NCBI GenBank assembly: GCA_964035545.1
Contig: OZ037773.1
Location: 8,892,751-8,956,750, forward strand
Reading direction: 5' to 3'
Length of the DNA: 64,000 bases
From: Bugula neritina
Taxonomy: Eukaryota > Bryozoa > Gymnolaemata > Cheilostomatida > Bugulidae
Shown: positions 1 to 43,922 of the stretch, piece by piece
Numbering within the stretch: the first letter of the stretch is position 1
Layout of the letters: every line of letters starts with the position of its first letter
Notes under the pieces: model-generated
What the model saw: the letters and a program-made list of their open reading frames with translations, nothing else
Database searches by the model: none
What the model was told of the DNA's origin: nothing
Position numbers and translations under genes: made by a program

Positions 1-105
1 TTAAATTTTTTTAGAAATTTAAAACAATTCACGAGTCATTTGTTTAGTCTAAAATTTAAAGTTGTCATCCAAATATATACTCAAACACTGCTATCATTTT
101 TGCAG

Positions 106-3100
106 GCTTGTAATGAATATCTACAACTCTCTTTAACTGCAGATGAGTAGAAAATGGTATTCTCACAGTATGACAGGTATTGTAAGACAATAAACAAGCT
201 GTTATTACTCAGCGTAGCTCTTGCAATATATGGACTTGGCTGAAATATGTACATGTATAATATAATCTACATGTATAATATAGGCAAATCAACAGTTACA
301 CTCTCTGAAATGAAAAGTATAGTTGGTTATTTGATTAAATATAAGCTATTATGCTTAATTCAGAAAATTATATTTATGTCGCTTATTACTAGAAAGTTTT
401 CTTGTGACTTTTTACTATTCCTTCCCTAAAACTCAGATATTTTCAATTCGTTTCAGCAGCAATAATAACTGTTTCTTGAAAAAATAGCTGTGGCAGTTTT
501 AGTCAAAATCCACAAACTAATAGTGCTAAAATATTTTCTTCTCCACTTCAGAATTATCACAAATATTGACAACACTGATGGAGCTAAGACAGAGGAAATC
601 AATCTTTTAGCAAAGTAAGATTTTGAGCCATTATTAAATATTAATATCTGGTCTCAGTGTGACAATTATTTACTTATAATAATTTACAAGTTTCACTATT
701 CTGAGGCCATAGTTCAAGTTGTATCTGGTTGTAGTGAACAGTTCAGTTTATGGAAGAAGACAAATCAGTTGCTGGGAGATTCTATTGAAATACCAAACAT
801 ATTTGCTGACATAAAACCCATCTACAAGGTAATTGACAACTATAGAGCAAAGCAAATTGTTCTACTATAGTTATATACTACTAGCTCTAGTACAAGTAGC
901 AGTTGTAGCAGTTGTATTAGTGATGGTGGTGGTGGTGGTGATGGCGATGCATGGCGGTGGCGCTGACGGTGGCGATGGCGGTGGTGGTGATGGTATCATC
1001 AGCAGTAACCATTTAAGGATATAGCTTAGTTGCTTTAGTTGGTCTGACCAGAATAGCTGAAGAAATATTATATCATGTGCTTTATATGATTTGATTGCTT
1101 GGTAAATTATCTACCTTGATGGTTCCATTCATGTTTTTGTTATTCCTTGTACTATTTATAGAAGAAAGATGAATATTCAACACAAGTTGGAGGAGCTGTC
1201 CGATACAGCATCTCTCAACTTGAAGGTATGACTATGATGGAGAATCTGAATCTAAGTGAAGGAGCTGCCGGAGACAGCATCTTTCAAAGTAAGGGTGTGA
1301 CTATGATGTATAGGATGTTAAGTAAAACTATTTAAGTTAAATGAAATAGAAATGTTAAAAAATTCATTACTTTACATATTATATTAAACCTACAAACTGA
1401 AAATCACTTTGGCTGTGTAGTTCTATAATATGTAGTATCCCTATATCGAGAGTTGTCCGTTATGGTTGCTGTGTAAAGTAATGATACTACAGTTACTAGT
1501 CATATACAATAAACAATATGTCACTATACCAACATTTGACAAAATGCTTTTTTTGATAATATTATATGTGTATTTTATACATATCCTTCTATTTGAGTAT
1601 ATAGTACTTATTTATGGAATTTGTTTCACAGCTTTATATTTTTTATAATACAATCTAGTAATATATGTAATGTTGCAGCTGGTACAGAACTTCAGTACAG
1701 TCTGAGTGATTACTCTGTTATCTTGAGAGGGTCCTACTCTGATGTAACTAATAGTGGAGGGCATACTATACTAGCTAGTAGAGAGGGAGGGTTTGATGTA
1801 TTGGATACTAGTAAAGTATCTGAATCTAACAGTAGTGAAGGAGGGAGGGGATATGAGAGGGTGAAGTCTGTCCCAATAGAAATGGGTGGTTCTGTTGAGT
1901 CAATACAGAGATATGAGAATTGTATATATACTCTGTGTAGAGTAAATTATCAGCTAAAAGTAGTAGTGTTTGATGCTAACACATATGTTGAAGTAAAGAG
2001 ATGGTCTGTACCAGAGCTTGTATCACTTCTTACTAGACTAGCTGTGTGTGATGAGAAGGTCTATATGGTAGATCTCATACATAAACAGCTAACTGTATTC
2101 TCTACAGATGGTAAACACCTCACTAATATTACACATTCTAGTATCATTGAGCTCTCTGCCCTCTCTGTATGCCCTCCACACAGTATCATCATATGTGACT
2201 TCTCAGCTGACAGAGTACATAAACTAGACACTACAACACATGACATCATATGGAGTTCTACCGCAGTGAAGAGACCTTTAGCAGTATGCTGTGACCACAC
2301 ACGTGAAGAAGTGTGGGTGTGGTCTCATTATACTGGCTCTATGTACATTCTAGACTCCAATACAGGTATGTAGTTACCATACTGTATGATAGGTAAATGT
2401 CATTTGTTAGATACTGTTTTAATTCAAACAATGATTGTGAGCTAACCAGGTTTCAAATCTAAACTTTCTGCACTGTTTTATATGGTTAATAATTTTGATA
2501 AACCATGCATATATAGCATATGGGATAATAACAATTCAACTTCTGAAAATATATAGTTTTATAATTTCTATATACCCAACTTAATGCATACTTGACTACA
2601 TTAAATTTCAATCACTTTTTATTATTGCAAACAGGCTTAATATAATCATATTTTGGTCCTTTTTGTTTATGTGCTAATTTTCCCATTCTCCCAAGAAAGT
2701 TCTCTAAACATAATGGCAGTTTTATTCCATTCTGTTAAAAAGTTGAACATTCTTCAACACACAACCATATGTCCCCAAGAGCCCTGCACCATGTGGTTAT
2801 TGAGTCTAAATGCATGTATAAAATGTCACAAGGTTTAGTCCATATAAATATGTAATCAAACATTTTAGGGTAGACTGTAGAGTTATCTCATCACAACAGT
2901 TGGAAAACTTTATGGTAATAACTGCTGCAGCATCTCAGCTAAACATTCTAATCATGAAATCAATCAACTTTTGCAAACCGTATGAATAATATCTAGATTT
3001 TAGAATACAGATTATTATTTTATTTTTCATGGAAAATAGAGAGGGCAACTTCTTGTAACAAATATGGAGACAGTACACAAATTATAAGTTATTTATTATT

Positions 3101-3303
3101 TTCATGCAAGGGTAAAACTTGAATTTGCAAATTAATAAAGTATGCATGTTGTAGGAAAGCAGAGGAAGATAGTAGGCAATACCCAAGACTTGCGCCACCT
3201 TCTAAGGCAACCTGTTCCTGCTGGTATGTGTGTAGTGGAAGGACAACTCTGGGTAACACCTTTCTTCCGCGGACTAATAAAATTTAAAATTAAGCAACAA
3301 TAA
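106..3303 (+). CDS. Copy A of the twin-module/propeller gene, 3' part only, possibly inactivated
   Basis: Seven exons line up one-to-one with exons 7-13 of the complete copies B and C: 106-176, 552-614, 735-828, 1162-1288, 1679-2365, possible microexon 2900-2914, and 3155-3303 (stop TAA). The first three encode the tail of the second helical module. Exon 1162-1288 is a serine-rich linker. Exon 1679-2365 is a 229-residue beta-propeller-like domain with repeated V-x-V-F-D and S-T-D-G-K strands resembling NHL or WD-type blades. The last exon encodes the conserved G-M-C-V-V-E-G-Q-L-W-V segment. Splice phases close. In exon 106-176 the codon that is TGG in B and C is TAG (148-150), so a transcript using this exon would be truncated before the propeller. 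One extra codon (F) sits in exon 735-828. Function is not recognised; the propeller suggests a binding or scaffold role. The 5' exons lie outside the window. Confidence 0.75.
896..1000. repeat. GGT/GTR trinucleotide microsatellite in an intron of copy A
   Basis: A purine-rich run dominated by GGT, GAT and GGC triplets lies in the intron after exon 735-828. The same run, shorter, occurs in the matching intron of copy C (about 32461-32520) but not at the corresponding place in copy B, where a transposon has inserted. It can be read as a glycine/valine-rich peptide but is not conserved as coding. Confidence 0.7.
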
Positions 3304-6017: not shown

Positions 6018-6019
6018 TA

Positions 6020-7216: not shown

Positions 7217-7224
7217 AGTCACCA

Positions 7225-11650: not shown

Positions 11651-14600
11651 ATGGAACAAGCAGTATCAGAAAGCTCTGGATCTGTGGACTTTAAAGGATG
11701 TAGTGACATACCACTCTGTGTTCTGGTTACAAGTAGAACTACTACTCTGCTTAAACGTGGCATAGCAACTCTTCTAGTGAGAAACACTCAATTTGATGCA
11801 GCAGACCTGTTTCACAATATTGTGAAGTTTCACTCTGATGGTTTGTCTGTAGCTGTTTTAAAAGAGATCAACATTATTGCTACTGTTTTGTCAAAGTTGC
11901 ATCACCCTAACCTTGTGGATATCCAAGGAATTCGTCTTGACATCTCATGGGATCATAAAAATAGAGTCCTCCAAAATGTGCCAAGTTCTTCAAAAATCCA
12001 GCTAAAGAACATTGAAGACAATCTAATACAAGAGATAAGCTCTGGTATCCAACTTCTGGAAGATGACATCATCAAATCTTCCCCAACTGTAGACACCCTG
12101 ACATTTGTAGAAGAAGCTATGACGAAACTCCAGTCCCCCACACCAGCTGAACAGAGAGAAGCCATAGAAGGTCTGGTGGCAGGACTAGTGGCTGGTGTCC
12201 TTGATAAATCTCCTCTCAGTCTGACACGTCTGAGAGACATGTTCCAGGGTGAATTTCCAGAAACTGTAAATGAGTGTCTTCAATATATAGACAGTAGTCA
12301 CTCTCAAATATTGGATAATGGTGGAAAGCTTGAAGGAGATCATGAAATACAAGAACTTCTGGCTCAATACAAGAGATGTGTGAAATTCTTTGTTGGTGAT
12401 TTAAGATGTCTTCCATTCAAATCATCAGATATTGTAAGTTCTTCCTATTAGAAGTCTACAACATAAATAAATGAGACAAAATCATAATAGTATTTGCAAA
12501 GCTTATAAAGAGTTTGCTATTATTTAACTATTTACAAGCTTGCAATAATTTTTAATATTGCAAGCACCTAAAAAGATTATTTCTATAAGCAAGCACTAAA
12601 AGTTTTACACCTATAGCTACCATCTTTGAAAATAAGTATAATCATACAAATGACCTTGATTTTGAAATTAAAATTTCTCATCAGTCTACTTGTTGTTTAG
12701 ATGTTTGAACTGTTTGACAAACTTTTCCTCAATGCTGAAAGCTGTAATGCCATATTGTAAAACTCCGACCAATTCTTTATCATTGTATAATTTTACAGAT
12801 CACCAAAGATCTGGTGGAGATGAGGCCAACTGCTGAAGAGTTGACACTCATTATTACAGGATATGATTGGTGAGTGACTCAATATGTACACCAGTTTAAC
12901 TACCTTCTGTTCTCTTACTTTGCAGAGTAGATAAACATATTGGCTCCTACTGTAATGTACACTAAAATATAATATTCTCCTCTGTCAGGGTGATTTCAAG
13001 AAGAAAGAGCTCTGATAACACAGACACAGATAGAATCAACTTGCTGGCAAAGTAAAATACTATATATTTATATCCTAGTGTTCATTGTGGTGTTAGCTAA
13101 CTTTATATATTTTGCCAGTTTCAAATAGTCCAAAGCTTTATACAGACTATACAAAGTAATATGGTGATTACCAGGATGTTTATATGTTTCCAGAGAACAG
13201 CATTCTATCTGGAGACAAGCCAACCACCATCTGGCTGGTTTATTAGATGGTAAGGAGTCTGGTGCCTTAGATGAGACTCCTGGAGACACTGAAGAGCTGC
13301 AAGAGAAGGTAACTCTATAAGTAAATCATAACTATTAGCCTAGGGCCACACGGTGCGTATTTTCGCATGCAAAAATTGAAATCACGAGCAAAGGTGTCCA
13401 CTGTGCGCGTTGAGAAAACGATCGCACTTGTTGCTCTGCATTCTCAACGCAAGTGCGAATCGTCTCTGTCGTCGTCACCTAATTGGCTGGTATAGTTATT
13501 CAGCGAGCCCAATTTTTTTATTTTAGTGCTACATTCCAGTAAATTGCGTTTTATTAAAAGCGAGTGCAATTTAAAAATGAAAGCTTTATTTATCACGCAT
13601 CACTGACGCTACAGTGGACACCTTTGCTACTTGTGATTTCAATTTTCCCATGTGAAAATACGCACCGTGTGGCCCTAGGCTTAGTTTATAATCTTGATGC
13701 TGATAATCAATACTCTATAACACATGTCATTAACCATGCTAGGGATTTTTTGATAAGCTTTGAAATGCTTTCAACTCAAACCAAATACAGTTTATGAACA
13801 TGGATAATGTATATATGTTACTGGAATGAGTTATAAAACTAACTGTAGCCATTGTATGAAATAGCATGCCATTAAAGCAATCTTTGAGGCCAAAATGAAT
13901 TTTATTTTATATTTTTATAGAATACTGATTTGACTACACAAGAAGTAAACAGTCCTGCACAAACCTCTTCTCAAAGTAAGTACAATAAACTTGTGCTCCA
14001 GTCATTTTTCCCGAATTATGATTAAGTATCAGTACTGATACCAGAATGCTGTTTGTAACAGTGTATTGGGTCTTCTATGAGTTTATTTCATTACGGTCTT
14101 TTATTAGCAATTGCTCTTTACTAATGAGATATTTTATTGTACATATTCTGACTAATACTAACAAAATAGTAATTGCTAGTATACGACAGTTTCATTTTAG
14201 ACAATATGCATTACACCTAGACAAAACTACTCAAATTATGATTATTTTGATGCATCTATAAGACCTACAGATTAATTTCCCCTTAAATTATTTTTTTTAT
14301 TATGAGCAGGAGGAATAAATTTCTTCATTACAGAAAAATTAGTTCACTTATAAAAGGCATATTTTCATTATTAGCCTTTTATTTCAGCTACACCCACTTC
14401 AAAGCATCTGGGTGGCCTTCAAACAGTTCCTTCAGATGTCCCACTGTGTGTTTTGATTGTGAACAGAATTAGAACATTGTTGGTGAAAGCATTAGCCTTT
14501 CAGTTGGTTAGAAAATCAGAATACAACATGGCCGACCTTATTGATGGACTTTCTTCAGTACTTCCTGCCGATTATGGTAAAACCAGCATCAAAGAGCTCA

Positions 14601-17600
14601 ACATCATTGCTAAAATCATATCAAAGATTCAACCTAGAGAAGCAGTAGAAGGTCAGAAAACTCCCGGCATCATTAAATGGGACAACAAATACAACAGATT
14701 GAAAAACGTTCCAACAGGGTTGAGAGTTCAACTGGCAAGTCTTCCATCTTGGTCACTAAAAGTCCCTTGCTTGAACATCTCTTTATTAGAAAAAGACATC
14801 ATCAAATCTTCTCCAACAGTAGAGACATTGACACTTGTCGAAGAAGCTATGAAGAAACTGGAGTCTCCCACACCAGCTAAACAGATAGAAGCCATAGAAG
14901 GTCTGGTGGCAGGACTAGTGGCTGGTGTCCTTGATAAATCTCGACTCAGCTTGACACATCTGATAGACATGTTCCAGGGTGAATTTCCATCATATGTCAT
15001 AAACCTCCTCAAAACTATCAACAATAACCAAGTCCAGATAATGGATAGTGGCAAGAAGATTGAAAATATGGAGTTGAGAGAAGACCTTATCACTGCATTC
15101 AATGATTGTGTGACTTTTCTTATAAAAGACTTCAAGTGTCTCCCAGTCACAGCACCAGAAGAGGTTAGTATGTTAACATAGCATGTTTTGTTTGCTGCTT
15201 TTAATAGTCATGAAAAGTGGTAGATTTTAGAAAGACAATACAGATATTTAAAGTAGCTATTATAATTTTTATTTACATCTCCAAAATTTTATTTTGTGGC
15301 TATAGATACTGTAAACTTCAATCACAGTCGCTATCTCCCTGATAATCCCTGATTGAAAGTTGTTTTCAAGGTGTTGAAAACTTTTTTCTATTGTGGCTAA
15401 TGCCTTTTCTAACATATAACATTTGCTGAGATTAAACTCATTGACATTCACTTATAAGCCAGTGCTCTAACTACTAGACTACTGCTGCTCTTGTGAGCAG
15501 TGTGGAGCCACCATAACTTCTTGGTTTGTAAACAGAATGCTACACAGTTGGTTTAAGGTCATACTTTTCATTTTCTGGCTCTTTGCCAGGTGCTTTATGT
15601 TCTATATGAACAATGTTCCACTGATAGCTCGAACAGGTTGAATGTCACAGGAACAAAAAAATATGAAAAAATAAAGAAACTTATGTTCTCCAATATACTT
15701 TTTTATTTTTTTCAAAAGCCAATTCATGTTTAAGTTATAGCTTGTTGAAAAACATAGTCCCCCTTCCACATTCTTTTCAATTTATACGCTCCTGACTTGT
15801 TATTGTGTCTCAATATGCCTTGTATTTGAGTGCTTGTTAGTCTCGCTTCACTAACTTTGCCTATACTTCACAAGTGCCAGTGCTGCTGGCTCAAAAGCTA
15901 AATGTTATAAACTGTCAGCTAAAACCCAATCTTGTATTCCTAGGTTGGTTGGCCTAAATAAAACAATAGTCAAATCATGATTTCATGTTTTAAAAATTTA
16001 CTCTATTCTAACCTGCTGCCTAGCTAGTTCTATTTTTGATGTATAATTACAAAATTTGTGATACATTTTTTTGGCAACCATGTAATTTATAAAATGCAGT
16101 AATGGTACTTATAATATTATATTATTATCATTATAATATATTATATAGTATTATGTGTGTTTTTATTATCCTGCATAATATCTAATTTATTATTGTTGTT
16201 GTGCAAACAAGTGCAATTAACCTAGTTTTCAAAATGTACCTCTAAATTATCAGAATATCAGTTTAGATATGTTCATGCTTTGTAAGGTAAACCTAAAAAA
16301 AGAGGCTGTATTCCCAAAGTAAAGGGTGTTGAACTATGAACTATATTAGATTAGCCACTCTGCTACCAAGTGCATCAGTATAATATTATATGAATAGCTC
16401 TGATGCTTTGTCTCCGGTGGCTGGCTGCGATATGATAACTTGGCCAACTTCCACGAGTTTAAAATTGGCGCAATTATTCAAGAGGTTACATACTGCACAG
16501 AGCTAGCAGTGATAGTAACCTTGCTATTGGCAGTACTTATTACAACTGCCAGCATATAAGCTGCATTGTAGAATGCCGTTGGGGCAGGCTAGTAAAACCA
16601 AATTCTGCTCTCTAATATACCTTAGACAAAATGCAGCAACATAATTTTTAGTTTCAAATTACATTTGCCACCCTTACATGAGCTGTGGGCTTCATAAAGA
16701 TTCATATGATTAGAGATTTATGCTATAGGCCCTATCTGTGCTAGTGTATGATGAAAATAACACACCATTGTCAAAGTTAACTTCAAGTATGTTGTTTTCC
16801 AGAAACTCAGTAATGTCCATTTATCTCTCGCATACAAATACTTATGTAATAGCATACAGTTTAAGTTTTATTTTAGAGCACATCTGCAAACTCTACAATA
16901 AGAGCTTGCTTTACCAGTCTATTTCAGACCTGTTTTTGTAGCTAGTAATACGCAAGCTACTTATTTTTAAACTTTTGGGTTATTTGTTCAAAACCATTAG
17001 CTTTGCTAGTAACCCGAGACTATTGCAACAGTTGACTGCTATCAACATGAATTGACAGCCTAATAATTATAACCCTTTTGCGGCGCGAAATATTTATGTA
17101 ATGATAGTTACTCATATAGTGCGCATTTTATTAACGATGACTGCGTGGTCTAGAGGTTAGAGGCGTCAGCGAGGAGTTAGTTGGTTATGGTTCACCCCTG
17201 TTTTGTCGCAATTTTTTTTGTCAACTTATGCAAATCCTACGCATGTATAATAAATATGGCTATAATTGTAAAGTTTTTTTTTAACTTTTGTTCAACAGTA
17301 AGACAACATACATGCATAATAATTAGATACTGAACACTGGACTAAACCTGAAATTGATCTTATAGAATACAATGTACTTAAAATAATCATATGTTAATTA
17401 GAGAAACTGAAAGTTCACCTGCTGCTCTATAGACAGACCTTTACTGACAAGACTGCAAAGTGAAGTGATTTAGCTGAAATTAACTCTGCCAAACAAACAA
17501 AGAATTATGTTGTGCTGAGGCATTTTCAATATATTATTGTAACATAGTGAGATGATTCAGCTAAGTGCTAATGTAAAACAGGGAACATTATATTGGCAGA

Positions 17601-20600
17601 AATCCAATAGACTGCCAATTTGTGCGAGAGGGTACTATATGTTATTGTGATAGCGCAGAGCGGCAAACGTACTAGGAATGTTATAATTAGTCACAGGAGC
17701 GTAGCTAGAACCACCATATGAAGAATTTAGAAAATTGCAGTGAAACTTGCAAAATGGTGTATGTTTTTACCAAATTGTGAAGAGCATAAACAGAATTTCA
17801 AAAAACAAAGAAAGTATATTAGAGAAAACATATCAAGGAATGTCAAGTTTCACTTTTATACTTTATAAAATGAATCCCCTGTGCTACAGCAGTGGAACAT
17901 GGAGGGTGTAAAATTTTACTTATTATGCAACAACTTTTTCAAAAAAATTTTTATTGAAAAATTAAAAAAGTATATGAAAGAGGAATGCAAGAGCTATCTT
18001 TTCATGTAAAATTTGTTAATGTGAGACAAAAACTGTTCGAGCTATCCCCTGGAAACCGTTTATATATAACATAAAGCAGTGCCTGAATCTGGAAAGTAAT
18101 GACCTTAAACCAACTGTGTAGAGTTCTATCAGAGAAAGTAAAAGTGTTCCTGAAAAAATTAAAATGGACTTACGTTTGTAGCTATAGTAGAACATCAAAC
18201 CATCTGCTCATTTCTGAGCATTTTTATTCATAGTTCTTGATATTTGAATGTTTAGCTTGCTCTGAACTTTAACAGTGCTATCATTGTTGCAGGCATGTAA
18301 TGAATATCTACGGCACTCTTTAACTGCCGATGAGTGGGAAATGACATTCTCACAGTATGACAGGTATTATGAGGCTATAAGTATTTTTTGTTATTTAAAT
18401 TAAATATCTTTAGCAAACATATATGAAAACATTGATGTTGTATTGTTTAATGTTCTTCACATGTTAAGAGAATTTGCATTTTGCTTTAAGACTTTTATAT
18501 AATGTATTTTTCCTACTAATTATAACTTACCAATAATATGTGCAAACCAATCAGCTACATTTGTAAAGTATGAGAATCAACACGAAAAATATTGAAAGCA
18601 TAGTTGGCCTGATTAAATGCAAGCTAGGTTTGCAGAGAAATGATATTTATATTGCTCATATCTCTAAAACGCTTTCTCGTTACTTGTAGCTACACTCCCT
18701 CCAAAACTTAGATGTGTTTAATTCTTCTCAATGACAATGTGTATGTGATTCTCTCCTCAAAAACAAACAGTGGCAGTTTTTGTCAAAATATGGCAAACTG
18801 AAAGTGCTAATTTTTTCTTTTCTCAACTTCAGAATCATCAGAAATATTGACAACACTGATGGAGCTAGGACAGAGGAAATAAATCTTTTAGCAAGGTAGG
18901 ATACTGGACGATCCTTAGCACACTTTCTCAGTGTAATCAGTTTTACTGATATAAATAAGCTCATTGTATGCATTCACAAGTTTCACTAATCTGAAGCCAT
19001 AATACAAGTTGTATCTTATTTTAGTGAACAGTTCAGTTTATGGAAGAAAACAAATCAATTGCTGGGAGATTCTATTGGAGTACCAAACATTGCTGACATA
19101 AAACCCAGCTACAAGGTACACTTCAAAACAGTCTTCTATAGGGGTAACGGGAGCGCAACGGGCCGAGTTTTGCAGTTTTTGCTCTCATTCGTCTGTTTTT
19201 CAAGTTACTAGTTCAATAATCTCTAGTCTTAATGCTGCATCTGTTGTCTATTACAGGTATCAGTTTATTGTTTCTATCTCTTTCACAACTTTCAGAATAA
19301 TGAAGTTTTCTTGACGAAAAAATCGGCCCATTGTGCCCCAGTACCGGGGTACAATGGGCCACTGGGTGGAACACAACAAATATATTGAAACTTTGCAGAT
19401 TTTGTTGCATCTGATTTTTATTTATTTAATATTACAAACAAATAAAATTATTCTTTCAGATCTACAGCAAAATTCATGTTTTAGCTGTACAGTTTGTGCC
19501 ACCACGGATAGCAGAGGAAGGCAAAATCAAACGAACATCACTTGGTTCTACGGTGCCATTATCATTACTGTTTAGAACTAAAAATGTTTTCTTTTACACT
19601 CCAGAAAAACTTTTAATAGAAAAAAACTTTAGTAACTTGTACTACATAAGTCTGAGTGGACTTTTTTCTATGAACTGTAGCTTATAAGGTGCATGGCTTC
19701 GGTTTGTGGCTAGAGTATGGAAGGAAGAGGGGGGAGCAAATGAGCAAATCACAATTTATTTTAGTCAAATACATCTATATTCCTTCAATGATATAAAGTA
19801 TAATAAATATCATGGCTATCTACTAGTAGCAACAGCAGAGTGTTTTGTATTATGTATAAAATAGCAAAGCTTTAACCTCACCAGATGTATATATTAAGGG
19901 AGCTTCACCTTGTAGTTTGGTAGTCTTACCATGATGTCTTTGATATTTTACAAAAAGGTCAGAAATGGCTATATCTATAGATTTTAGTAACATTTCAATC
20001 AACTTTTTGGGCAAACAAACTAATAACAGTGATCAGGGTACAATAATCAGGTGGCCCATTGTGCCCCGGTCAAGGTGGCCCATTGTGCCCTGAATGGCCA
20101 AATTTGACACAAACGTGCCTTAAGAAAAGTTTATTTTAGAGTTTGCTGTTATACTAGTTAAGTGTAATAGTATTATATTTAAAGGATTGCTCTATCTTAG
20201 TTTATTACAATCACATTATAATTATGAACTATAATCTAATGTGTATGCAAACAATTGTGACTTTGCAAAGGGATATATGCCTAGAAAACAGCTTTTCAAA
20301 ATTCCAATTTTGAGGGAGGTAAAATTTTCAGCCATGAAAAAGAATAGCCTAATACGTGACGTGTGAACGCCAGTAACTATGCTGCACGTGCTAACTATAA
20401 CGCTAGTATTCAAGGTTGCTGAGCGCAACATCAACCAATAACGCTCAAGCAGTTACAGTGCGCTATATAGGTCAGCTTTGGTGGGCCCGTAATATTGCAC
20501 AATCTGACCTAGTTTAGATCGATCGCAGGCATTCATCCTAAAGAATGCATGTTTTTGCAATGCTTTTTTCTATGTTTACAAGCAAAATATGGCCTAATGT

Positions 20601-23600: not shown

Positions 23601-24107
23601 AGTTATCTCATCACAACAGTTGGAAAACTTTATGGTAATGTCCGCTGCAGCATCTCAGCTAAACATTCTATTCATGAAATAAATCAACTTCTTGCAAATT
23701 TAACAGAGACCTAGATTCTAGAATCAAATAGAATCTTTGATTTTCTGGTGCAATTGAAAACAGAGAGGGTAACAATATAATATATGGAAAATAGAAAGGG
23801 TAACTAGATGTAATGGATATTGAGAGAAAAACTCCATGTAGTGGATAGAGAGAGGGAAACTCTATGTAATGAATTAGGAGGGTACATGAATTTGAGTTAT
23901 TTAATTTTTTCAGGTGCGAAACTTGAACTTGTAATTTAATCAATAATACATGTTGTAGGACAGCAGAGGCAGATAGTAAGGGATACTCGACCCTTGCGCC
24001 GCTTTGTAATGGAAAGTCTTCTTCCTGGTATGTGTGTTGTGGAAGGACAACTCTGGGTAGCATCTTCATCTCGTGGACTAGTAAAGATTAGAATTAACAG
24101 ACACTAA
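11651..24107 (+). CDS. Copy B: twin HEPN-like-module protein with C-terminal beta-propeller (unrecognised family)
   Basis: Exons: 11651-12433, 12799-12869, 12989-13051, 13194-13308, 13921-13975, 14388-15163, 18293-18363, 18833-18895, 19025-19115, 21898-22024, 22389-23075, optional 23620-23634, 23959-24107; 1,016 residues without the microexon. Residues 1-344 form module 1 and 363-696 module 2. Both have a D-[IV]-P-L-C-V-L strand near the start, a G-L-V-A-G-L-V-A-G-V helix and a C-L-P end, followed by the same three small exons with the same phases. Residues 739-967 are a beta-propeller-like domain. The site aligned with the R-x4-H of gene D reads H-S-Q-I-L-D in module 1 and Q-V-Q-I-M-D in module 2, so the modules look catalytically dead if they are HEPN folds. 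The start at 11651 is chosen because it matches copy C and has a good AATGG context. No signal peptide or membrane span is visible; probably cytosolic. Introns hold a MITE and two large transposons. Role unknown. Confidence 0.82.
13338..13680. mobile_element. 343-bp Harbinger-like MITE in intron 4 of copy B
   Basis: The ends are inverted copies of GCCTAGGGCCACACGGTGCG and continue for more than 25 bases, with a second inner inverted block (CAAAGGTGTCCACTG). The element is flanked by TTA on both sides (13335-13337, 13681-13683). The same intron of copy C lacks it. A 3-bp TTA duplication is typical of PIF/Harbinger elements. No protein is encoded. Confidence 0.88.
15415..15500 (-). other. SINE-like, tRNA-related segment in intron 6 of copy B
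   Basis: On the minus strand a box-A-like AGTCTAGTAGTTAGAGCACTGG is followed by a weak box B (GAGTTTAATCTC). The matching intron of copy C has the same sequence near 31170-31235, so it predates the duplication. It could be a decayed tRNA-derived SINE; RNA structure was not tested. Confidence 0.35.
15543..18118. mobile_element. 2.58-kb TA-flanked element (type 1), second copy, inverted, in intron 6 of copy B
   Basis: This is the reverse complement of 7706-10268 over its full length, with ends CACAGTTGGTTTAAGGTCA and TA on both sides (15541-15542, 18119-18120). The uninterrupted site is readable in copy C near 31507, where GAATGC-TA-TAGAGTTC lacks the insert. The two copies differ by scattered substitutions and small indels, and the long TA tract is outside the element. 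No transposase is present. Confidence 0.9.
17136..17219 (+). other. tRNA-like segment inside the second type 1 element
   Basis: Box-A-like TGGTCTAGAGGTTAGAGGCG at about 17146 and a box-B-like GGTTCACCCC at 17189, followed by a T run at 17212-17219 that could terminate RNA polymerase III. Same segment as 8606-8690 on the other strand. Probably a SINE captured by the transposon rather than a tRNA gene. Confidence 0.45.
20164..21124. mobile_element. 961-bp insertion within the type 2 element, flanked by TTAAG
   Basis: The first type 2 copy runs straight through TTAAG-CAATGTAG (near 5722). In this copy TTAAG is duplicated at 20159-20163 and 21125-21129, with the insert beginning TGTAATAG and ending CACATTACA. 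TG...CA ends with a 5-bp duplication suggest a solo LTR or a TIR element. It contains a second, nested element. Confidence 0.7.
20184..20950. mobile_element. 767-bp element flanked by TTAA, nested in the previous insertion
   Basis: AGGATTGCTCTATCTT at the left is matched by AAGATAGAGCAATCCT at the right, each next to TTAA (20180-20183, 20951-20954). TTAA targets suggest a piggyBac-type MITE, but the family is inferred only from the target site. No coding potential is evident beyond short frames. Confidence 0.65.
21408..21803. mobile_element. 396-bp LTR- or MITE-like element at the end of the type 2 copy
   Basis: It begins TGTAGTGAATTT, ends AAATCCACTACA, and is flanked by CCCC on both sides (21404-21407, 21804-21807), the duplicated bases being part of the terminal repeat of the type 2 element. 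A TATATAAAC stands about 40 bases before its right end. A relative lies at 38546-38899. The TG...CA ends suit a solo LTR; the 12-base inverted ends also suit a MITE. Confidence 0.75.
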
Positions 24108-27708: not shown

Positions 27709-30700
27709 ATGGCACAGGCAGTATCAGCAAGCTCTGGATCTGTGGACCTTAAAGTATGGAGTGACATACCACTCTGTGTTCTGGTTACAAGTAGAACTAC
27801 TACTCTGCTTAAACATGGCATAGCAACTCTTCTAGTGAGAAACAGTCAGTTTGATGCAGCAGACCTGTTCAACAATCTTGTGAAACTTTACCCTGATGGT
27901 TTGTCTGAAGCTGTTTTAAAAGAGATCAACATTATTGCTACTATTTTGGCAAAAGTACATTATCCAAACCTTTTGAATATCCAAGGAATTCGCCTTGACA
28001 TCTCATGGAATCATGAAAATAGAGTCCTCCAAAATATGCCAAGTTTTTCAAAGGTCCAGCTAGAGAACATTGGAGATAATCTAATACAAGAGATCAGCTC
28101 TGGTATCCAACTTCTGGAAGATGACATCATCAAATCTTCTCCAACAGTAGAGACACTGACACTTGTAGAAGAAGCTATGAAGAAATTCCAGTCTCCCACA
28201 CCAGCTGAACAGAAGGAAGCCATAGAAGGTCTAGTAGCGGGACTAGTGGCTGGTGTCCTTGATAAATCTCCACTCAGCTTGACACATCTGCTGGACATGT
28301 TCCGTGGTGAATTTCCAGAAACTGTAAATGAGTGTCTCCAGTATATAGACAGTAGTCACTCTCAAATATTGGATAATGGTGGAAAGCTTGAAGGAGATCA
28401 TGAAATACAAGAGCTTCTAGCTAAATACAAAAGATGTGTGAATTTCTTCATTGGTGATTTAAGATGCCTTCCACTCAAATCATTAGATATTGTAAGTTCC
28501 TTATATTGGAAGTCTACAACATAAGTAAATGAGACAAAAAATATAATATTATTTGCAAAGCTTATGAAGAGTTCGTTATTATTTAACTATTTACATTCTT
28601 GCAATAATTTTTTATGTTGCAAGCACCTAAAAAGATTATTTCTAAGCAGGCACTAAAAGTATTGCACCTATTGCTACCATTTTTGAAAAAAGGTATAATC
28701 ATACAACTGACCTTGACTTTGAAATTAAATTCCTCATCAGTCTACTTGTTGTTTAGATGTTTGAATTGTTTGAAAACCTTTTCTTCCATGCTGAAAGCCC
28801 GAGGTGCTATATTGTACAACTCCAACCAATTGCATATATCATTGTATTTTTCAGATCACTAAGGATCTGGTAGAGATGAGACCAACTGCTGAAGAGTTGA
28901 ACTTCATTATCACAGAATATGATGAGTAAGTGACTCAATATGTACACCAGTTTAACTCTTTCTATTCTCATACTACACAATGTAGGTATAAGTGTATAAG
29001 CTATTACTATAACACTAAAATATAATATTATATTCTGTCAGGGTGATTTCAAGAAGAAAGAGCTCTGATGAAAGAGATGCAGATAGAATCAACTTGCTAG
29101 CAAGGTAAGAGACTATGTATGCATATCCTAGTGTTTACTGTGGTGTTAGCTAACTTTATATAATTAGTCAGTTTCAAACTGTCCAAAGTTATGAAAAGTA
29201 ATATGGTGATTACTAGATTTTTTATATGTTTCCAGAGAACAGTATTCTATCTGGAGACAAGCCAACCACCATCTGGCTGGTTTATTAGATGGTAAGGAGT
29301 CTGGTGCCTTAGATGAGACTTCTGGAGACACTGAAGAGCTGCAAGAGAAGGTAACTCTATAAGTAAATCATAACTAGTAGTCTATAATCTTGATGCTGAT
29401 AATCAGTACTCTATAACACATATCATTAAGCAAACTAGGGATTTTTTGATAAGCTTTGAAATGCTTTCAACTCAAACCAAATACATTTTATGAACATGGA
29501 TAGTGTATATATCAGTTACTGAAATGAGTTATAAGAATAGCTGCATGCGTGTGCCATTGTATGAAATAGCATGCCATTAAAGCCATCTTTGAGGCTAAAA
29601 TAAATCTTATTTTATATTTTTATAGAACACTGGTTTGACTACAAAAGAAGTAAATACTTCTGCACAAAGCTCCTCTCAAAGTAAGTACAATAAACTTGTG
29701 TCTCAGTCATTTTCCTAAATTATGATTAAGTTCTAGCATTAGTACCAGAGTACTATTTATAACAGTGTATGAGATTTTCTATGAGGTTATTTTATAGCGG
29801 CCTTTTGTTAACAATTGCTCTTTACTAATGAGATATTTTATTGTACATATTATACTAACTAATACTAACAAAGTAGTAATTGCTAGTATACCCCAGTTCC
29901 ATTTTAGACATTATGTATTAGACTAAGTCAAGGCTACTCAAATCATGATTATTTTGATGCTTCTAAGACCTACAGATTGATTTTCCTTTAAATTATTTTT
30001 CTTGTGACATTATTTTATTGTGAGCAAATCATAGCTTAAATTTTTCATTACAAAGAAAGTAGTTCACTTATAAAATGCATGTTTTCATTATTAGCTTTTT
30101 TATTTCAGCTACACCAGCTCCAAAGCATCTGGGTAGTCCTCAAACAGTTCCTTCAGACATTCCGCTGTGTGTTTTGATTGTGAACAGAATTAAAACATTG
30201 TTGGTGAAAGCATTAGCTCTTCAGTTGGTTAGAAAATCAGAATACAACATAGCCGACCTTATTGATGGACTTTCTTCAGTACTTCCTGCCGATTATGGTA
30301 AAACCAGCATCAAAGAGCTCAACATCATTGCTAAAATCATATCAAAGATTCAACCTAGAGAAGCAGTAGAAGGTCAGACAACTACCGGCATCATTAAATG
30401 GGACAACATAAACAACAGATTGGAAAACGTTCCAACAGGGTTGAGAGTTCAGCTAGCAAGTCTTCCACTTGGGCCACTAAAAGTTTGTTGCTTGAACATC
30501 TCTTTATTAGAAGGCGTCATCATCCAAACTCTACCAACCGTAGAGACATTGACACTTGTAGAAGAAGCTATGAAGAAACTCCAGTCCCCCACACCGGCTG
30601 AACAGAGAGAAGCCATAGATGGTCTGGTGGCAGGACTAGTGGCTGGTGTCATTGATAAATCTCCATTCAGTTTGACACGCCTGATAGACATGTTTTGTAG

Positions 30701-33700
30701 CGAGTTTCCACCATCTGTCATAAACCTCCTCAAATTTATCAACAATAACCAAGTTCAGACAATGGAAAGTGGCAAGAAAATTGAAGATATGGAGCTGAGG
30801 CAAGTACTTGTCGCTGCATTCTATGACTGTGTGATTTTCCTTATCAAAGATTACAAATGTCTCCCAGTCACAGCACTAAAAGAGGTTAGTATGTTAACAT
30901 AGCATGTTTTGTTTACTGATTCTAATAGTCATGAAAAGTGGTAGATTTTATGAAGACAATACAGATATTTAAAGCAGCTGTTATAATTTTTATTCACATC
31001 CCCAAAAGTTTATTTTTTGGCTATAGATACTGTAAACTTTCATTACAATTGCTATCTCCCTGAGAACCCCTGATTGAAAGTTGTTTTCAAGGTGTTGAAG
31101 ACTTTTTTCTATTGTGGCATTTATGACAGAAATCCTTTTTTAACATCCAACATATTTTGCTTCAATTAGACACATTGACATTCACTTATAAGCCAGTGCT
31201 CTAACTACTAGACTACTGCTGCTCTTGTGAGCAGTGTGGAGTCACCAGAACTTCTTGGTTTGTAAACAGAATGCACGAGTAGTTCTATCAGATAAAATAA
31301 AAGTGAATTCTTGGTATAATTAAAATGTTGGAACGTCTGGTAAAAAAAGGTTTTCATCATGGGGCTAGAGATTGTTTTTTTATTCTGGCATTTATGTCAG
31401 CATGCCTTTTGTAACATCACTGATGGTTTTTAATAAGAGTAGACTCACTGACGTTCACTAAGCCACTAAGCAATGTGGATCTATCAAAACTTTTTGGTTT
31501 CTATCAGAATGCTATAGAGTTCCATCAGATATAAAAAAGTGAATTTTTGGTAGAATTAAAATGGACAGATTTGTAACTATAGTAGAGCATGAATCCATCC
31601 GCTCATTTCTGAGCCATTTTATTTAGTTTTTAATATCCGATTGCTTAAAGCTTGCTCTGAACTCAATCACTGCCATCATTGTTGCAGGCTTGTAATGAAT
31701 ATCTACAACTCTCTTTAACTGCAGATGAGTGGAAAATGACATTCTCACAGCATGACAGGTAATATGAGACAATACACAAGCTATTATTCCTCATCACAGC
31801 TCTTGCAATATATGGACTTGGCTGAAATATGTATATGTAAATAATCTACATGTATAATATAAGTAAATCAACAGTTACACTCTCTGAGATGAAAAGTATA
31901 GTTGGTTATTTGATTAAATATAAGCTATAATGTTTAATTCAAAAAATTATATTTATGTCGCTTATTACTGGAAAGTTTTCTTGTGCAACTTATTACTATA
32001 CTTTCCCTGAAACTCAGATATCTTCAATTCTTTTCAGCAGCAATAATAACTGTTTCTTGAAAACATAGCTGTGATAGTTTTAGTCAAAATCCACAAACTA
32101 AAAGTGCTAAAATATTTTCTTCTCCACTTCAGAATTATCACAAATATTGACAACACTGATGGAGCTAAGACAGAGGAAATCAATCTTTTAGCAAAGTAAG
32201 ATTTTGAGCCATTATTAAATATTAATATCTGGACAATTGTTTACTTATATTAATTTACAAGTTTCACTATTCTGAGGCCATAGTTCAAGTTGTATCTGGT
32301 TGTAGTGAACAGTTCAGTTTATGGAAAAAGACAAATCAGTTGCTGGGAGATTCTATTGAAATACCAAACATTGCTGACATAAAACGCATCTACAAGGTAA
32401 TTGACAACTATAGAGCAAAGCAAATTGTTCTACTATAGTTATATACTACTAGCTCTAGTACAAGTAGCAGTTGTAGCAGTTGTAGTAGTGGTGGTGGCGA
32501 TGGCGGTGGTGGTGATGGTATCATCAGCAGTAACCATTTAAGGATATAGCTTAGTTGCTTTAGTTGGTCTGACCAGAATAGCTGAAGAAGTATTATATCA
32601 TGTGCTTTATATAATTTGATTGCTTGGTAAATTATCAACCTTGATGGTTCCATTTATGTTTTTGTTATTCCTTGTACTATTTATAGAAGAAAGATGAATA
32701 TTCAACACAAGTTGGAGGAGCTGTCGGATACAGCAGCTCTCAACTTGAAGGTGTGACTCTGATGGAGAATCTGAAACTAGGTGAAAGAGCTGCCAAAGAC
32801 AGCATCTCACAACGTAAAGGTATGACTATAATGTATAGCATGTCGTAAAACATTTTAAGTAATATGAACTACATTTATGCTAAATAATTAATTAGTATAA
32901 TTGGGGTATTGAACCTGCAAATTTGAGATCAGTTAGATTGTCTTATTCTGAGCAAGAGTCTTTGTGTGATGGTTAGCGAACGTATATACTACTCTCACGT
33001 GTTGGGCATCCAATAAGACTGAAGCACGTGATTACCCCTTCCGGAACAGGATGCTTCAGTAAGACAGATAGAGTAGTTAATTAGTAGGAGCGCGTTAGTA
33101 AATGTAGTAGGCTTGTATTAGATTGTAAATGTATTTTCGACACTGGATGTGTCTCTCTTTATTTTATATGAGTACAACAAATATAGTTCATTGTGTCACG
33201 CTACCAACAGAGTAATTCATCTAGTTACTAAGTGAATCCACCATCATTGCACACACGCAGAACCCACCCTAAGATGATAATTGGCAGAATTATTACATTT
33301 GTATACAGAGTTGTCTTCTTAGCTGCTGTGTAAAGTAATGATACTACAGTTAATTGCTATTTCTGCAAATTGAATGCAAACAACCATGAGTGTACAAATT
33401 GCTTTATATAATATTTTATGTGTATTTTATACAATATTGAGTTATAATACATTAAAGCATTCATTTATAAAATTTGCTTAAAAGCTTTATTCATTCTAAT
33501 ATATTCATTTATAATATAATCTGTTAATATATGTATTGTTGCAGCTGGTACAGATTTTCCGTACAGTCTAGATGATTACTCTGTTATCTTGGAAAGTTAC
33601 TGCTATGACGTAGCTGATGGTGGAGGGCATACTATACTAATTAGTAGATGGAAAGGGTTTGATGTATTGGATACTAGTAGTAAAGTATCTGAATCTAGCA

Positions 33701-35208
33701 GTAGTGTAGGAGGGAGGAGATATGAGATAGTGAAGTCTGTCACAATAGAAGAAAGTGGTTTTATTCGGTCAATACAGAGATATGAGAGCTGTATATATAC
33801 TCTGTGTAGAGTAAATGGTCAGCTACAAGTAGTAGTGTTTGATGCTAACACATATGTTGAAGTAAAGAGATGGTCTGTACCAGAGATTGTAGGATACCTT
33901 ATTAAACTAGCTGTGTGTGATGAGAAGGTATATATAACAGATTACAGACATAAACGGCTAACTGTATTCTCTACAGATGGTAAACATCTCACTAATATTA
34001 CACAGTCTATAAGTTTCATTGAGCCCTCTGCCCTCTCTGTATGCCCTCCACACAGTATCATCATATGTGACTTCTCAGCTGACAGAGTACATAAACTAGA
34101 CACTACAACACATGACATCATATGGAGTTCTACTGCAGTGAAGATACCTGTAGCAGTATGCTGTGACCACACACGTGGAGAAGTGTGGGTGTTGTCTTGT
34201 TATACTGACTCTCTGTTCATTCTAGACTCTGAGACAGGTATGCAGCTAATCATGTTTATTGTAAGTTTAATGCCACCACATACTATATATATAGTTTGAT
34301 GTATATGTTGTTTCGGTGTAAATAGGGCCTGTAATACGGACAGGTTTCAAATCTTAACTTTGTGCAATTTTTATATGGCTAATAATTCTGCTAAACCATG
34401 CAGCATATGAGACAATATGAGACAATAGTAATACAACTTCTGAAATTATAGCCTTGTAATTTCTATATACCCAACTTAATGCATACTTGACTACATTAAA
34501 TTTCAATTACTTTTTATTATTGCAAACAGGCCTAATATAATCATATTTCGGTCCCCTTTGTTAGGCTAGTTTTATCATTCTCCTAAGAAAGTTCTTGAAA
34601 CATAATGGCAGTTTTACTCCATATAAGCTACATTCTGTTTAAAAGTAGAACATCTCCTTCAGCATAGAACCTTGTGTTCCAGAGAGCCCTGCACCATGTG
34701 GTTATTGAGTCTAAACGCATGTATAAAATTTAATATAGTATATAGTCCATATAAATATATAATTAAACATATTAAGGTAGAAGTTAATTGTATATTTGCA
34801 ATAAATGTGTAGACTGTAGAGTTATCTCATCACAACAGTTGGAAAACTTTATGGTAATAACTGCTGCAGCATATCAGCTAAACATTCTAATCATGAAATG
34901 AATGAAATTTTTTTCAACTCATATGAATTCTAGATTCTAGAACAAACATTACTATTTGACTTTCTGGTGCCATTTATATGGAAAATATAAATTATAAGTT
35001 ATTTATTATTTTCATGCAAAGGTAAAGCTTGAATTTGGAATTTAATAAAATATATATACTAATACATTTTGTAGGAAAGCAGAAGCAGACAGTAAGCAGA
35101 AGAGAAGACTTTTTATCTTCTCCTTTTGGTATGTGTGTAGTGGAAGGACAACTCTGGGTAGTATCTTCCTTCAGCGGACTAATAAAACATAAAATTGTCA
35201 CCCACTAA
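27709..35208 (+). CDS. Copy C: twin HEPN-like-module protein with C-terminal beta-propeller (unrecognised family)
   Basis: Exons: 27709-28491, 28855-28925, 29042-29104, 29236-29350, 29626-29680, 30109-30884, 31688-31758, 32133-32195, 32306-32396, 32687-32813, 33545-34237, optional 34839-34853, 35075-35208; 1,013 residues without the microexon. Exons 1-10 have exactly the same lengths as in copy B; the propeller exon is two codons longer and the last exon five codons shorter. Domains follow copy B: module 1 with H-S-Q-I-L-D at the motif site, module 2 with Q-V-Q-T-M-E, linker, propeller with V-F-D-A-N-T-Y-V-E-V and S-T-D-G-K-H-L blades, and the G-M-C-V-V-E-G-Q-L-W-V tail. No stop codon or frameshift is seen in this model, so it looks functional. 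ATG at 27709 is in a favourable context. The protein's activity is unknown; an innate-immune or RNA-sensing role would be a guess from the HEPN-like fold and tandem expansion. Confidence 0.85.
31170..31235 (-). other. SINE-like, tRNA-related segment in intron 6 of copy C
   Basis: Counterpart of 15415-15500. A second, more decayed copy of the surrounding 250 bases follows at about 31340-31600, so this part of the intron was locally duplicated in copy C. Confidence 0.35.
32950..33290. mobile_element. Insertion of about 330 bp in intron 10 of copy C, possible solo LTR
   Basis: The matching introns of copies A and B run from the upstream flank straight to the GTAAAGTAATGATACTAC block, whereas C has extra, less AT-rich sequence. 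It contains near-inverted ends (TGATGGTTAGCG and CGCTACCAACA) and a promoter-like TTATTTTATATGAG. I could not find a clean target duplication, so the exact ends are uncertain. Confidence 0.4.
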
Positions 35209-38200: not shown

Positions 38201-38545
38201 ACTCATTCTGATTCTCATTGTCATTCACATTCTTATTGATTTTGAATTTCAATTTCAACTCGCTATTCTAATTTATATAGCTATTGAATGTGAATATGGA
38301 TATATTTATACTTATACTTTAACTTAATTCTTATAATTATACTTATAGTTAATCATAATGTTATACTTATACTTATACTTATAGTAAATGGAATTGTTGT
38401 TGGATTGAATTTGATATTGAGGTTGATAATGATATTGAGTTTCAAAATTTAATTTATATTATTACTATAGTATCAATATTACTACTAGTACTACTATTAG
38501 ATTTAGTATAAGTATTAGTATTACTGTTACTATCAGTTTTAGTAT
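35209..38545. other. 3' flank of copy C and intergenic DNA before gene D
   Basis: The first 1.1 kb matches the flank of copy A and holds about five copies of the 19-bp minisatellite (35655-35755) and a pure run of 20 C at 36066-36085. From about 36400 to 38545 I see no gene. From 38150 on, the sequence is cryptically simple, with repeated TTCAGTTTGAG, ATTCTGATT and TTATACTTATACTT patterns. Confidence 0.6.
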
Positions 38546-38899
38546 TGTAGTGAATTTCTCAATTCACTATATTATGTGGGTCGACTTATACAAAGCTACT
38601 ACACCAGGTTATTTACGTTATAACAAGTTTATTATTTACAAGATACAAGAATTGAATTACTACTAACATGAATTGTACGATTACATAATAATGAGCACTT
38701 TGCACACAACTACTCTAAGCGAAGTCCCAAGCTGCTGCTTCCACTACGAGTAGCTAGCTCCACCTGCTATCAATTAACAGTCCTTCCTGATTGGCTGGTA
38801 TTAGTGGTGCCGCTGTCGACCATAAGATGTAAGTCGGCTGGAAGTCGACCCTTTCGATATATAAACTAATTGTTAATTGCACTACTGAAATCCATTACA
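38546..38899. mobile_element. 354-bp LTR- or MITE-like element, second copy
   Basis: Clearly related to 21408-21803 along its length. It begins TGTAGTGAATTTC, ends GAAATCCATTACA and is flanked by GTAT (38542-38545, 38900-38903). The 4-bp duplications of differing sequence at the two loci show independent insertion. Confidence 0.8.
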
Positions 38900-38903
38900 G
38901 TAT

Positions 38904-40471: not shown

Positions 40472-43400
40472 ATGGCCATCAGAACAGATGCTAGCTATAA
40501 TGACATAGGATTCTGTGTGCTGGCTGGTTGCAACACTGAAGCTGTTCTTCGCCAGTCCATAGCCTCTGTGTTGATCAGAGAATTGGATTCAAACTATCAT
40601 CGATTAGCAGATGTGGTGGGGCGAAGGGTAAACTTTCAAGATGACAATGACTATATAGATCAAATAATCCAAGTGGCCAACACTATTACTGGAGAGCATT
40701 CCGTGGAAGATTGGGAAAACTTAAAAGGTAAAATTCTTGGAAAATTTACAAGACCCAAGTCGTTATCATGCGTTCATCTGTCAGAACTGATTGACGCTGT
40801 GGAGAAAAGCTGGAGTGTTGACCATCGAAGTTGTGTAGATGAGTTGATCTTCGGGTTACTACAGCTTGCTCTTCAAAGTAAAACACTCGACAGGCGATAC
40901 CGTTACACTTTTGCTGATTTGATCAAAATGGTGTGCCCTGGTAAAGCTGATACTGTTGGTTTACCGCTGTTTGCCAACTCTCCCATTTCTAATCCTATGA
41001 CCCCAGGAGTATGTGGTAGACTGCACAATGTCAAAAAAACTCGCAATAACATAGTTCATGAGGTTCTTCATTTTACTAGTGAGAGAAAAGAGTTTGAAAT
41101 CAATTACACACGTGCTGTGAATTTCTGTGTTACAAATTTCAACTGCTATCCACTAATAAAAGAGGTAAAATATTATAGCATGTTGGAAATATAGTTGAGT
41201 GATTTTGTTTAGCTTTTAATATTATAAACACATGTTGATATATGTTAAATGACAATTATTTATACATTTTGTATTGTAAAAGAAAGCCTGAAGTTTCTGT
41301 TGTAGACTGTGTTAGATGACCTTCAAAATATTACACTAAACCTACCTGGCTATGGCGCGATTAAAGATGCTTATGAAATGTAAGTAGATGAAATGCAAAT
41401 GAACCAAACTTTGGACCGTTTGCTATAACTTTGAGGTTTTGGATAAACCTTGTGCTATGTAAGATTTTGTAGTATCTACTTGTAGTTAGACTGAGAGTAA
41501 TACTATAGTATCTACTAGTAGTTAGACTAAGAGTAATACTATAGTATCTACTAGTAGTTGGACTGAGAGTAATACTATAGTATCTACTAGTAGTTGGACT
41601 AAGAGTAATACTATAGTATCTACTAGTAGTTAGACTAAGAGTATAGTATATACTAGTAGTTAGACTAAGAGTAATACTATAGTATATACTAGTAGTTAGA
41701 CTGAGAGTAATGCTATAGTATATATTAGTAGTTAGACTGAGTGATGCTATAGTGTCTACTAGTAGTTGGACTGAGTGATGCTATAGTATATACTAGTTGT
41801 TAGACTGAGAGTAATACTATAGTATCTACTAGTAGTTAGACTGAGAGTATAGTATCTACTAGTAGTTAGACTGAGAGTAATGCTATAGTATCTACTAGTA
41901 GTTAGACTGAGAGTATACTATCTACTAGTAGTTAGACTGAGAGTAATACTATAGTATATACTAGTAGTTAGACTGAGCGTAATACTATAGTATCTACTAG
42001 TAGTTGGACTGAGTGATGCTATAGTATATACTAGTAGTTAGACTGAGCGTAATACTATAGTATCTACTAGTAGTTAGACTGAGCGTAATACTATAGTATC
42101 TACTAGTAGTTGGACTGAGTGATGCTATAGTATATACTAGTAGTTGAACTAAGAGTAATGCTATAGTATATACTAGTAGTTAGACTGAGAGTAATGCTAT
42201 AGTGTCTACTAGTAGTCGGAGTTTAGCTCTCTTGTTGACTCTGTTGTAGGTCAGCAGCACAAAAAGGTCTATCTGCAGGAGAGATCAAGTCTCGTTTAAA
42301 GTTAGTCTCTTTTATTATCTTCTAATCTAGTGATCAGTCAATAAGATTATGAATTTGTGTCGATTGGTAGCAGAGTTTGGTTACATGAAGCTGATTTACT
42401 AATGAAACTATTTGTGAGAAATTGGTAACTTACAACTTGACAGAATTGAATTGCTCTCTAAATCGTAATATATTGGATATTGTTAAACTGATTTTATAAA
42501 TCTCTAGCCTATTAATTAGAAATCTGGAAAATTATCTAATAAGTACAAACAATGTTTATGTTCAAGCCAATGGGAACACCAATATAATGCCTAATATTAC
42601 CTCAATATCTTCTTAACTTCCTCTCAATATTTCCACAACGTCCCCTCCTATATTTCAAGAATTTTCCCGGCATGATTCTTGCATAGAAAGCGTTTAAGGC
42701 AAATGTTCTCAAGAAAAGCAACTTTTGCTGAGCTTAGAAATTTGCTCAATTTCGTTGGACCCCCAGTTTGTCTCGATTTTTATTCAATTTTAATTCTTTC
42801 TTCCTGGTAACGTTACCAAGCATAAGCTGCTCTACAAGGGTCATTCTTTACACGGATACACTGAAATAGAATGTGCTTCATGAAGGTGTAGTTTTGGTAA
42901 TGGTTTGCATTTATTTGGTAACTATTTTGTTTGTAAGTTTGTAAGAAATCAGAAATATTTATTTGTGATTAGCTATAAGTAGTTGAAAAGTTATTGATTT
43001 TAAAATGTTTTATTCTCGCAGGAAATATGATATGTGATGCGTGAATTAAAAGGCTTATGCTGTTTAGAAAAAGGATATAAATTAGCACTTTGCTTTGACT
43101 GGCATGGTTATCTTATTCTACCTTACTATCACCTGCAGACAACTGGAAACTTTACAACGGAGAGCTAATAAGGCAGTTGAGAAACTTGATAAGGCTATTC
43201 GGTATCAGGAAAGAGGAGATTTACCTCGATCTCGAGCTGAAATGTTGGAAGCAAAAGGACTCCTGACTGCAGGTATAATAATCAATTGCTTTGTTCAAAC
43301 ATTAAGTACAGTTTAGCATTTTTACTGTTCTGCTTTCAGCCCTATTTCACTCTGTACTCTCTATTTCACTCTGTACTCTCTATTTCACTCTGTACTCTCT

Positions 43401-43922
43401 ATTTCACTCTGTACTCTCTATTTCACTCTGTACTCTCTATTTCACTCTGTACTCTCTATTTCACTCTGTACTCTCTATTTCACTCTGTACTCTCTATTCC
43501 ACTATGTACTCTGTATTTCACTATGTACTCTCTATTTCACTATGTACTCTCTATTTCACTCTGTACTCTCTATTTCACTCTGTACTCTCTATTTCACTAT
43601 GTACTCTCTATTTCACTATGTACTCTCTATTTCACTCTGTAATCTCTATTTCACTCTGTACTCTCTATTTCACTATGTACTCTCTATTTTACTCTGTACT
43701 CTCTATTTCACTATGTACTCTCTATTTCACTCTGTACTCTCTGTTTCACCCTATAAACTCCTAATACATTACTGTTGGTCTCAGGAATATAGTATTGGTT
43801 ACCCGCTTTCTAAAAATAGACTGAATGTTGAGAAAGGGCAGAAAACTCCGACAATAACTTGTGGTACTTTATAATATATTCTAGTTTTGTATTAATTTTC
43901 AGGTGGAAATACACACAAGTAG
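40472..43922 (+). CDS. Gene D: single-module HEPN-like protein with R-x4-H motif
   Basis: Five exons, 40472-41164, 41306-41379, 42250-42300, 43139-43272, 43903-43922, give 323 residues with all phases closing. Exon 1 (231 residues) aligns with the large module exons of copies B and C: D-I-G-F-C-V-L near the start matches D-I-P-L-C-V-L, and the end F-N-C-Y-P matches L-R-C-L-P. The next exons have matching phases and a helical R-R-A-N-K-A tail like W-R-Q-A-N-H. Near the end of exon 1, T-R-N-N-I-V-H-E (R191, H196) fits the R-x4-6-H active-site motif of HEPN ribonucleases, and its context resembles the DZIP3-type HEPN subfamily. If correct, it is a metal-independent RNase or RNA-binding domain in the cytosol. 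It lacks the second module and the propeller. A possible AATAAA is at 44542. Unlike B and C, it is clearly diverged in sequence. The HEPN call is by motif and pattern, not by search. Confidence 0.75.
41455..42215. repeat. 36-bp-type minisatellite filling intron 2 of gene D
   Basis: Tandem units built from AGTAGTTAGACTGAGAGTAA and CTATAGTATCTACT, with shortened variants lacking parts, occupy about 760 of the 870 intron bases and stop about 35 bases before the acceptor. Confidence 0.92.
43340..43765. repeat. 19-bp minisatellite CTCTATTTCACTCTGTACT in intron 4 of gene D
   Basis: About 22 head-to-tail copies, many identical, others with A for C in the CTCTG word. It is pyrimidine-rich on the coding strand and so resembles a long polypyrimidine tract. 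It opens long artificial reading frames in all three plus frames, which I reject as coding. Confidence 0.93.

Follow-up and report, generated by a model that had tools for sequence, protein, structure and literature searches.

In this analysis of a 64,000-nucleotide stretch of the genome of the bryozoan Bugula neritina (contig OZ037773.1, here C9; C9:8892751-8956750, termed "the window"), we describe a tandem array of three related genes, A (partial), B and C, and a neighbouring gene, D. The full copies B and C each encode two successive helical modules, linkers and a propeller-like end, and D encodes a single homologous module with the motif R-N-N-I-V-H. We give a probability of about one half to the reading that A-C are receptors with a catalytically dead dyad of HEPN domains, which stand beside active single-HEPN effectors in a two-part intracellular recognition family.

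Structure of the array and of gene D

Splice sites and homology guided the manual construction of the gene models, in which all introns are GT-AG, and the window is part of a 216-Mb assembly. Genes B (11651..24107; 1018 amino acids) and C (27709..35208; 1015 amino acids) comprise 12 exons each, and their proteins are identical at 824 of 1020 aligned positions (81%). Ten of the 12 exons are equally long in both genes (783, 71, 63, 115, 55, 776, 71, 63, 91 and 133 nucleotides); the propeller exon (687 vs 693 nucleotides) and the last exon (149 vs 134 nucleotides) differ in length, and the phases agree. Both proteins contain two helical modules of about 260 amino acids, with like linker exons after each. 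Every module exon is followed by exons of 71, 63 and then 115 or 91 nucleotides, and thus, the repeated unit consists of a module plus its linker exons, present twice in B and C and once in D. The six exons of the tail of gene A (106..3303) have the lengths found in B, except for the third (94 vs 91 nucleotides). These spliced models bear out an earlier note, made from the letters alone, which had claimed shared exon lengths and phases for A-C and the order of two helical modules, linker and propeller for the full copies; we call the end propeller-like.

Both modules of A are located shortly before the start of the window (L013, L019). In exon 106-176 of A, an in-frame TAG takes the place of the tryptophan codon of B and C, and this gene may therefore be either a pseudogene of recent origin or the source of a two-module protein without a propeller. 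Module 1 occurs at five places on C9, and propellers 75-100% identical to that of C occur at five nearby places; the five copies are termed Y and Z (both upstream of A), A, B and C. Of these, only A, B and C (three of five) were found to carry module 2, and in Y and Z (C9:8863266-8884616; L014, L015, L035, L038) module 1 and a propeller are present and module 2 was not found. Further modules are located on C1, C5, C6 and C8.

Protein searches yielded 11 proteins, three of them named (P0001, P0004 and P0010), each a hypothetical protein of Bugula neritina; P0001 is 82% identical to C over 56% of C. No signal peptide or membrane helix was seen in the B and C proteins by reading, with no predictor run, which suggests that these proteins are intracellular.

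Gene D (40472..43922; 323 amino acids) contains the module-plus-linker series once, in exons of 693, 74, 51, 134 and 20 nucleotides, the last of which was inferred from phase. Exons 2-4 are entered in the same phases (0, 2, 2) as in B and C, and the last exon in phase 1, not 0. As the earlier note had read it, D is a single-module protein with R-N-N-I-V-H (residues 191-196), and its homology to the module profiles is established (hhalign probability 98.7, E 4e-16, 199 columns). The public protein P0005 (317 amino acids) is 81% identical to exon 1 of D and runs on as D-like sequence across the junctions of exons 1-2, 2-3 and 3-4. Because of this continuity and its own contig of 1110 bases, P0005 looks like the complementary DNA of a D homologue, or possibly a retrocopy. 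Together with purifying selection on module 1 (see below), the continuity over the D junctions indicates that the gene structures described here are more than chance.

Single-module genes flank the array on C9 (D2 at 8858944, D at 8933222 and, on the opposite strand, D3 at 9019150), and an E-type single-module gene is found at C1:20587462. Minisatellite-like tandem repeats occupy window positions 41423-42220, 43247-43854 and 60222-60807, the first two mainly within introns of D.

Proposed HEPN assignment and loss of the R-x4-H motif

The motif alignment comprised 22 modules of this genome, with the TAG-containing module at C8:7184198 (L028) left out. Both the arginine and the histidine are present in three of the 22 (D, D3 and E), one (D2) has the arginine only, and the remaining 18 lack both at the aligned positions. 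All nine D-, D3- and E-type sequences, including homologues from other sources, retain R, N and H, while the intervening residues vary; R191 and E124 are invariant in 10 of 10 rows, D2 included. At the equivalent residues of A-C, module 1 reads HSQI[LM]D and module 2 reads QVQ[TI]M[ED], and an R-x4-6-H motif in which R is followed by a polar residue (N, D or H) is absent from the six A-C modules and from D2. In the C6 and C8 modules (L022-L027, L029, L030) an R and an H occur a few residues downstream, as RDGHRF in most, which might represent a shifted site.

Structure prediction, a check that the earlier note had suggested for D and for each module, was taken up with an AlphaFold model of module 1 of C, a homologue that lacks the motif. 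The motif position aligns with residues 217-222 of this module, at the end of a helix (204-222) that is followed by a loop and another helix (230-250). The three top-ranked structural matches are HEPN proteins, with RC3H2 in first place. The Pfam searches that had likewise been proposed gave a negative result: no curated HEPN profile matched over its cut-off in the modules, their homologues or the whole C and D proteins, and HEPN_DZIP3 (PF18738) had no match over cut-off in the window or in whole C or D.

Several traits agree with the HEPN superfamily as described in the consulted part of its survey (Anantharaman 2013, PMC3710099): D shares an R-x4-H with N after R, the aligned motif position in the model ends the penultimate helix, before the last one, and an acidic residue is conserved in an earlier helix. 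Unlike the members covered in that part of the survey, which usually measure 100-120 amino acids, the modules here span about 240-260 and match no Pfam HEPN profile over cut-off, and the propeller fusion of the array has no counterpart in the portion consulted. Inactive versions are known, and the Swt1 HEPN dyad in particular provides a precedent for an inactive dyad in A-C (PMC3710099, same part). The animal HEPN_DZIP3 proteins also place HEPN domains in expanded families, together with NACHT, CARD, DEATH and similar domains (PMC3710099, in the part consulted), yet PF18738 has a single match over cut-off in the genome, on another contig (C6:308951; L001).

We infer that the modules and D represent a divergent HEPN domain. 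An unlikely alternative is a helical domain specific to this lineage and without relation to HEPN, in which R-N-x3-H would be coincidental; the array would then be an expanded family of scaffolds or adaptors. However, the motif is retained across three divergent types, its place in the model is that of the HEPN motif, and the three top-ranked structures are HEPN proteins. As divergent HEPN domains, the single-module proteins D, D3 and E are probable metal-independent ribonucleases (RNases) with R-N-x3-H as the active site, and the A-C modules are probably catalytically dead. The earlier note had cast D as an effector nuclease and A-C as its tandemly expanding, dead relatives with a propeller for binding specificity or scaffolding: motif loss, homology and tandem copies stand, while the HEPN fold and nuclease activity are put forward as predictions.

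Origin and evolution of the propeller

Scanned alone, the C propeller contains one NHL repeat (21.6 bits vs a Pfam cut-off of 20), which in the whole C protein scores 16.3, below the cut-off. A propeller relative at C9:8059414 (L043) is preceded by a RING-like exon pair (zf-RING_2, E 5.6e-5, 23.8 bits, under the cut-off of 27.3) that was joined by hand over a guessed intron; when left unjoined, the pieces did not match RING. On the basis of this exon pair and the NHL scores, the propeller probably derives from a TRIM-like family. The TRIM-NHL proteins Brat, Lin41 and Mei-P26 end in an NHL propeller, which the putative NHL-like end of A-C would resemble, and the relative behind the probable RING exon pair adds to the likeness. 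Unlike in TRIM-NHL proteins, neither RING nor B-box is matched at E up to 1 anywhere in whole C, and two modules take their place.

The genome contains at least 148 propeller matches, in clusters on contigs C1-C9; 150 of 248 candidates were scored (E up to 0.001), and the matches are exon pieces, not genes. Among the matches listed, none lies next to the C1, C5, C6 or C8 modules, the nearest one noticed being about 180 kb away on C5, and therefore, among the 150 scored candidates, the module-propeller fusion seems confined to the C9 array. By eye, a reverse-transcriptase-like open reading frame adjoins a propeller paralogue at C5:561553 (L039).

Modules and propellers evolve differently. Across the five C9 copies, the ratio of nonsynonymous (dN) to synonymous (dS) substitution rates (omega) is 0.46 in module 1, where omega 1 is rejected (twice the log-likelihood difference, 23.1), indicating purifying selection. 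The propeller exon yields omega 1.63 (GY+F3X4; twice the log-likelihood difference from omega 1, 6.3; p 0.012), with kappa taken from a coarse grid and a tree-based value that conversion can disturb. Between spliced B and C, dN/dS is 0.34-0.51 in modules and linkers, and the propeller part has dN 0.153 and dS 0.099. Among copy pairs, which share branches and are not independent, dN exceeds dS in nine of ten for the propeller (ratios 0.92-2.07; single Fisher tests under 0.05 in two of ten), in none of ten for module 1 (0.19-0.67) and in none of three for module 2.

With 13 N-terminal positions (4 variable) set aside, and with blades drawn by eye after the variability had been seen, variable propeller sites number 42 of 63 in DA/BC loops, 9 of 45 in AB/CD loops and 31 of 111 in strands. 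Among 232 circular shifts, the unshifted assignment alone attains the loop count, and the nonsynonymous-to-synonymous ratio pN/pS, summed over pairs, is 2.24 in DA/BC loops and 0.92 elsewhere. The DA and BC loops form one face of a propeller, and the changes thus appear to be concentrated on one face of these hand-assigned blades.

The propeller DNA of C (window 33545-34237) and Y (C9:8874152; L035) is 99-100% identical in four 26-codon segments and 81-97% identical in the other four. Owing to these differing flanks, the near-identical stretch of about 100 codons is, by its pattern of identity, a gene-conversion tract. In other clusters, for pairs with dN under 0.35 only, omega is 1.08-1.21 in three and 0.44-0.54 in three of the six pairs of four C6 propeller exons, and 0.56-0.92 in the six pairs of four close C3 exons; fast evolution would thus be partly a trait of the wider propeller family.

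Feature coordinates are collected in the table. On the minus strand, the window also contains histidine phosphatase branch 2 exons (45766-46035 and 49685-50083; Pfam E 5.3e-10 and 4.9e-12) and an AAA ATPase exon (53701-54135; Pfam AAA E 3.1e-30), which we take to belong to a proteasome regulatory subunit, with further exons nearby by eye.

Table. Window coordinates of the exons of genes A-D
Feature	Position	Strand	Basis or remark
Gene A, linker exons after module 2 (106-176 with TAG, 552-614, 735-828, 1162-1294)	106..1294	+	homology to B and C, GT-AG introns
Gene A, propeller exons (1679-2365, 3155-3303)	1679..3303	+	
Gene B, module 1 exon	11651..12433	+	
Gene B, linker 1 exons (12799-12869, 12989-13051, 13194-13308, 13921-13975)	12799..13975	+	
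Gene B, module 2 exon	14388..15163	+	
Gene B, linker 2 exons (18293-18363, 18833-18895, 19025-19115, 21898-22030)	18293..22030	+	
Gene B, propeller exons (22389-23075, 23959-24107)	22389..24107	+	
Gene C, module 1 exon	27709..28491	+	AlphaFold model: predicted local distance difference test (pLDDT) 81.0, predicted template modelling score (pTM) 0.81
Gene C, linker 1 exons (28855-28925, 29042-29104, 29236-29350, 29626-29680)	28855..29680	+	
Gene C, module 2 exon	30109..30884	+	
Gene C, linker 2 exons (31688-31758, 32133-32195, 32306-32396, 32687-32819)	31688..32819	+	
Gene C, propeller exons (33545-34237, 35075-35208)	33545..35208	+	
Gene D, single-module exon	40472..41164	+	
Gene D, R-N-N-I-V-H motif (residues 191-196)	41042..41059	+	
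Gene D, linker exons (41306-41379, 42250-42300, 43139-43272) and inferred last exon (43903-43922)	41306..43922	+	exon 1-4 junctions matched by P0005

A possible two-part recognition system

In an alternative reading, A-C would be RNA-binding regulators similar to Roquin. Their dead dyad would bind RNA and their propeller either RNA itself or a partner bound to RNA, such that host or viral RNA is tuned without a nuclease partner. The HEPN domain of RC3H2, the top-ranked structural match, contacts duplex RNA, and in Brat and Lin41 RNA is bound by the top surface of the NHL domain (PMC9070667, in the part consulted). Yet the RING, ROQ and zinc finger domains of Roquin (RC3H2, HEPN-ROQ region) have no Pfam match in C or D; the propeller omega above 1 and the conversion tract better fit a counter-changing target than host RNA; and R-N-x3-H is retained in the D-type genes. 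We regard this alternative as rather improbable. Self/non-self recognition between colonies, with variable propellers that mark or read genotype, would suit colonial animals such as bryozoans and a tandem array with a conversion tract, but is very improbable for proteins that appear to be intracellular.

In the reading of A-C as dead-dyad receptors beside active effectors, a duplicated dead module, forming a HEPN pseudo-dimer, would have been fused to a propeller from a family of the animal's own, probably TRIM-like. The propeller would bind a fast-changing target by one face, most likely a pathogen molecule, and the dead dyad would pass the signal on, most likely by pairing with an active single-module protein; such HEPN pairing would recruit, hold back or release its RNase. 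Tentatively, these steps might amount to an animal immune system of HEPN pairs, in which active RNases are switched via pairing with dead-dyad receptors, whose TRIM-derived, one-face propellers are diversified by selection and conversion. A literature search combining bryozoan, TRIM, immune and NHL found no relevant paper.

Judged from its sequence, the array resembles an intracellular recognition system of a kind not yet described. If the proposal is true, it would represent a family of animal receptors in which HEPN domains are linked to a diversifying propeller, and thus a route to controlling RNA-cutting immunity, and a propeller would have been transferred from one kind of receptor onto a new signalling part.
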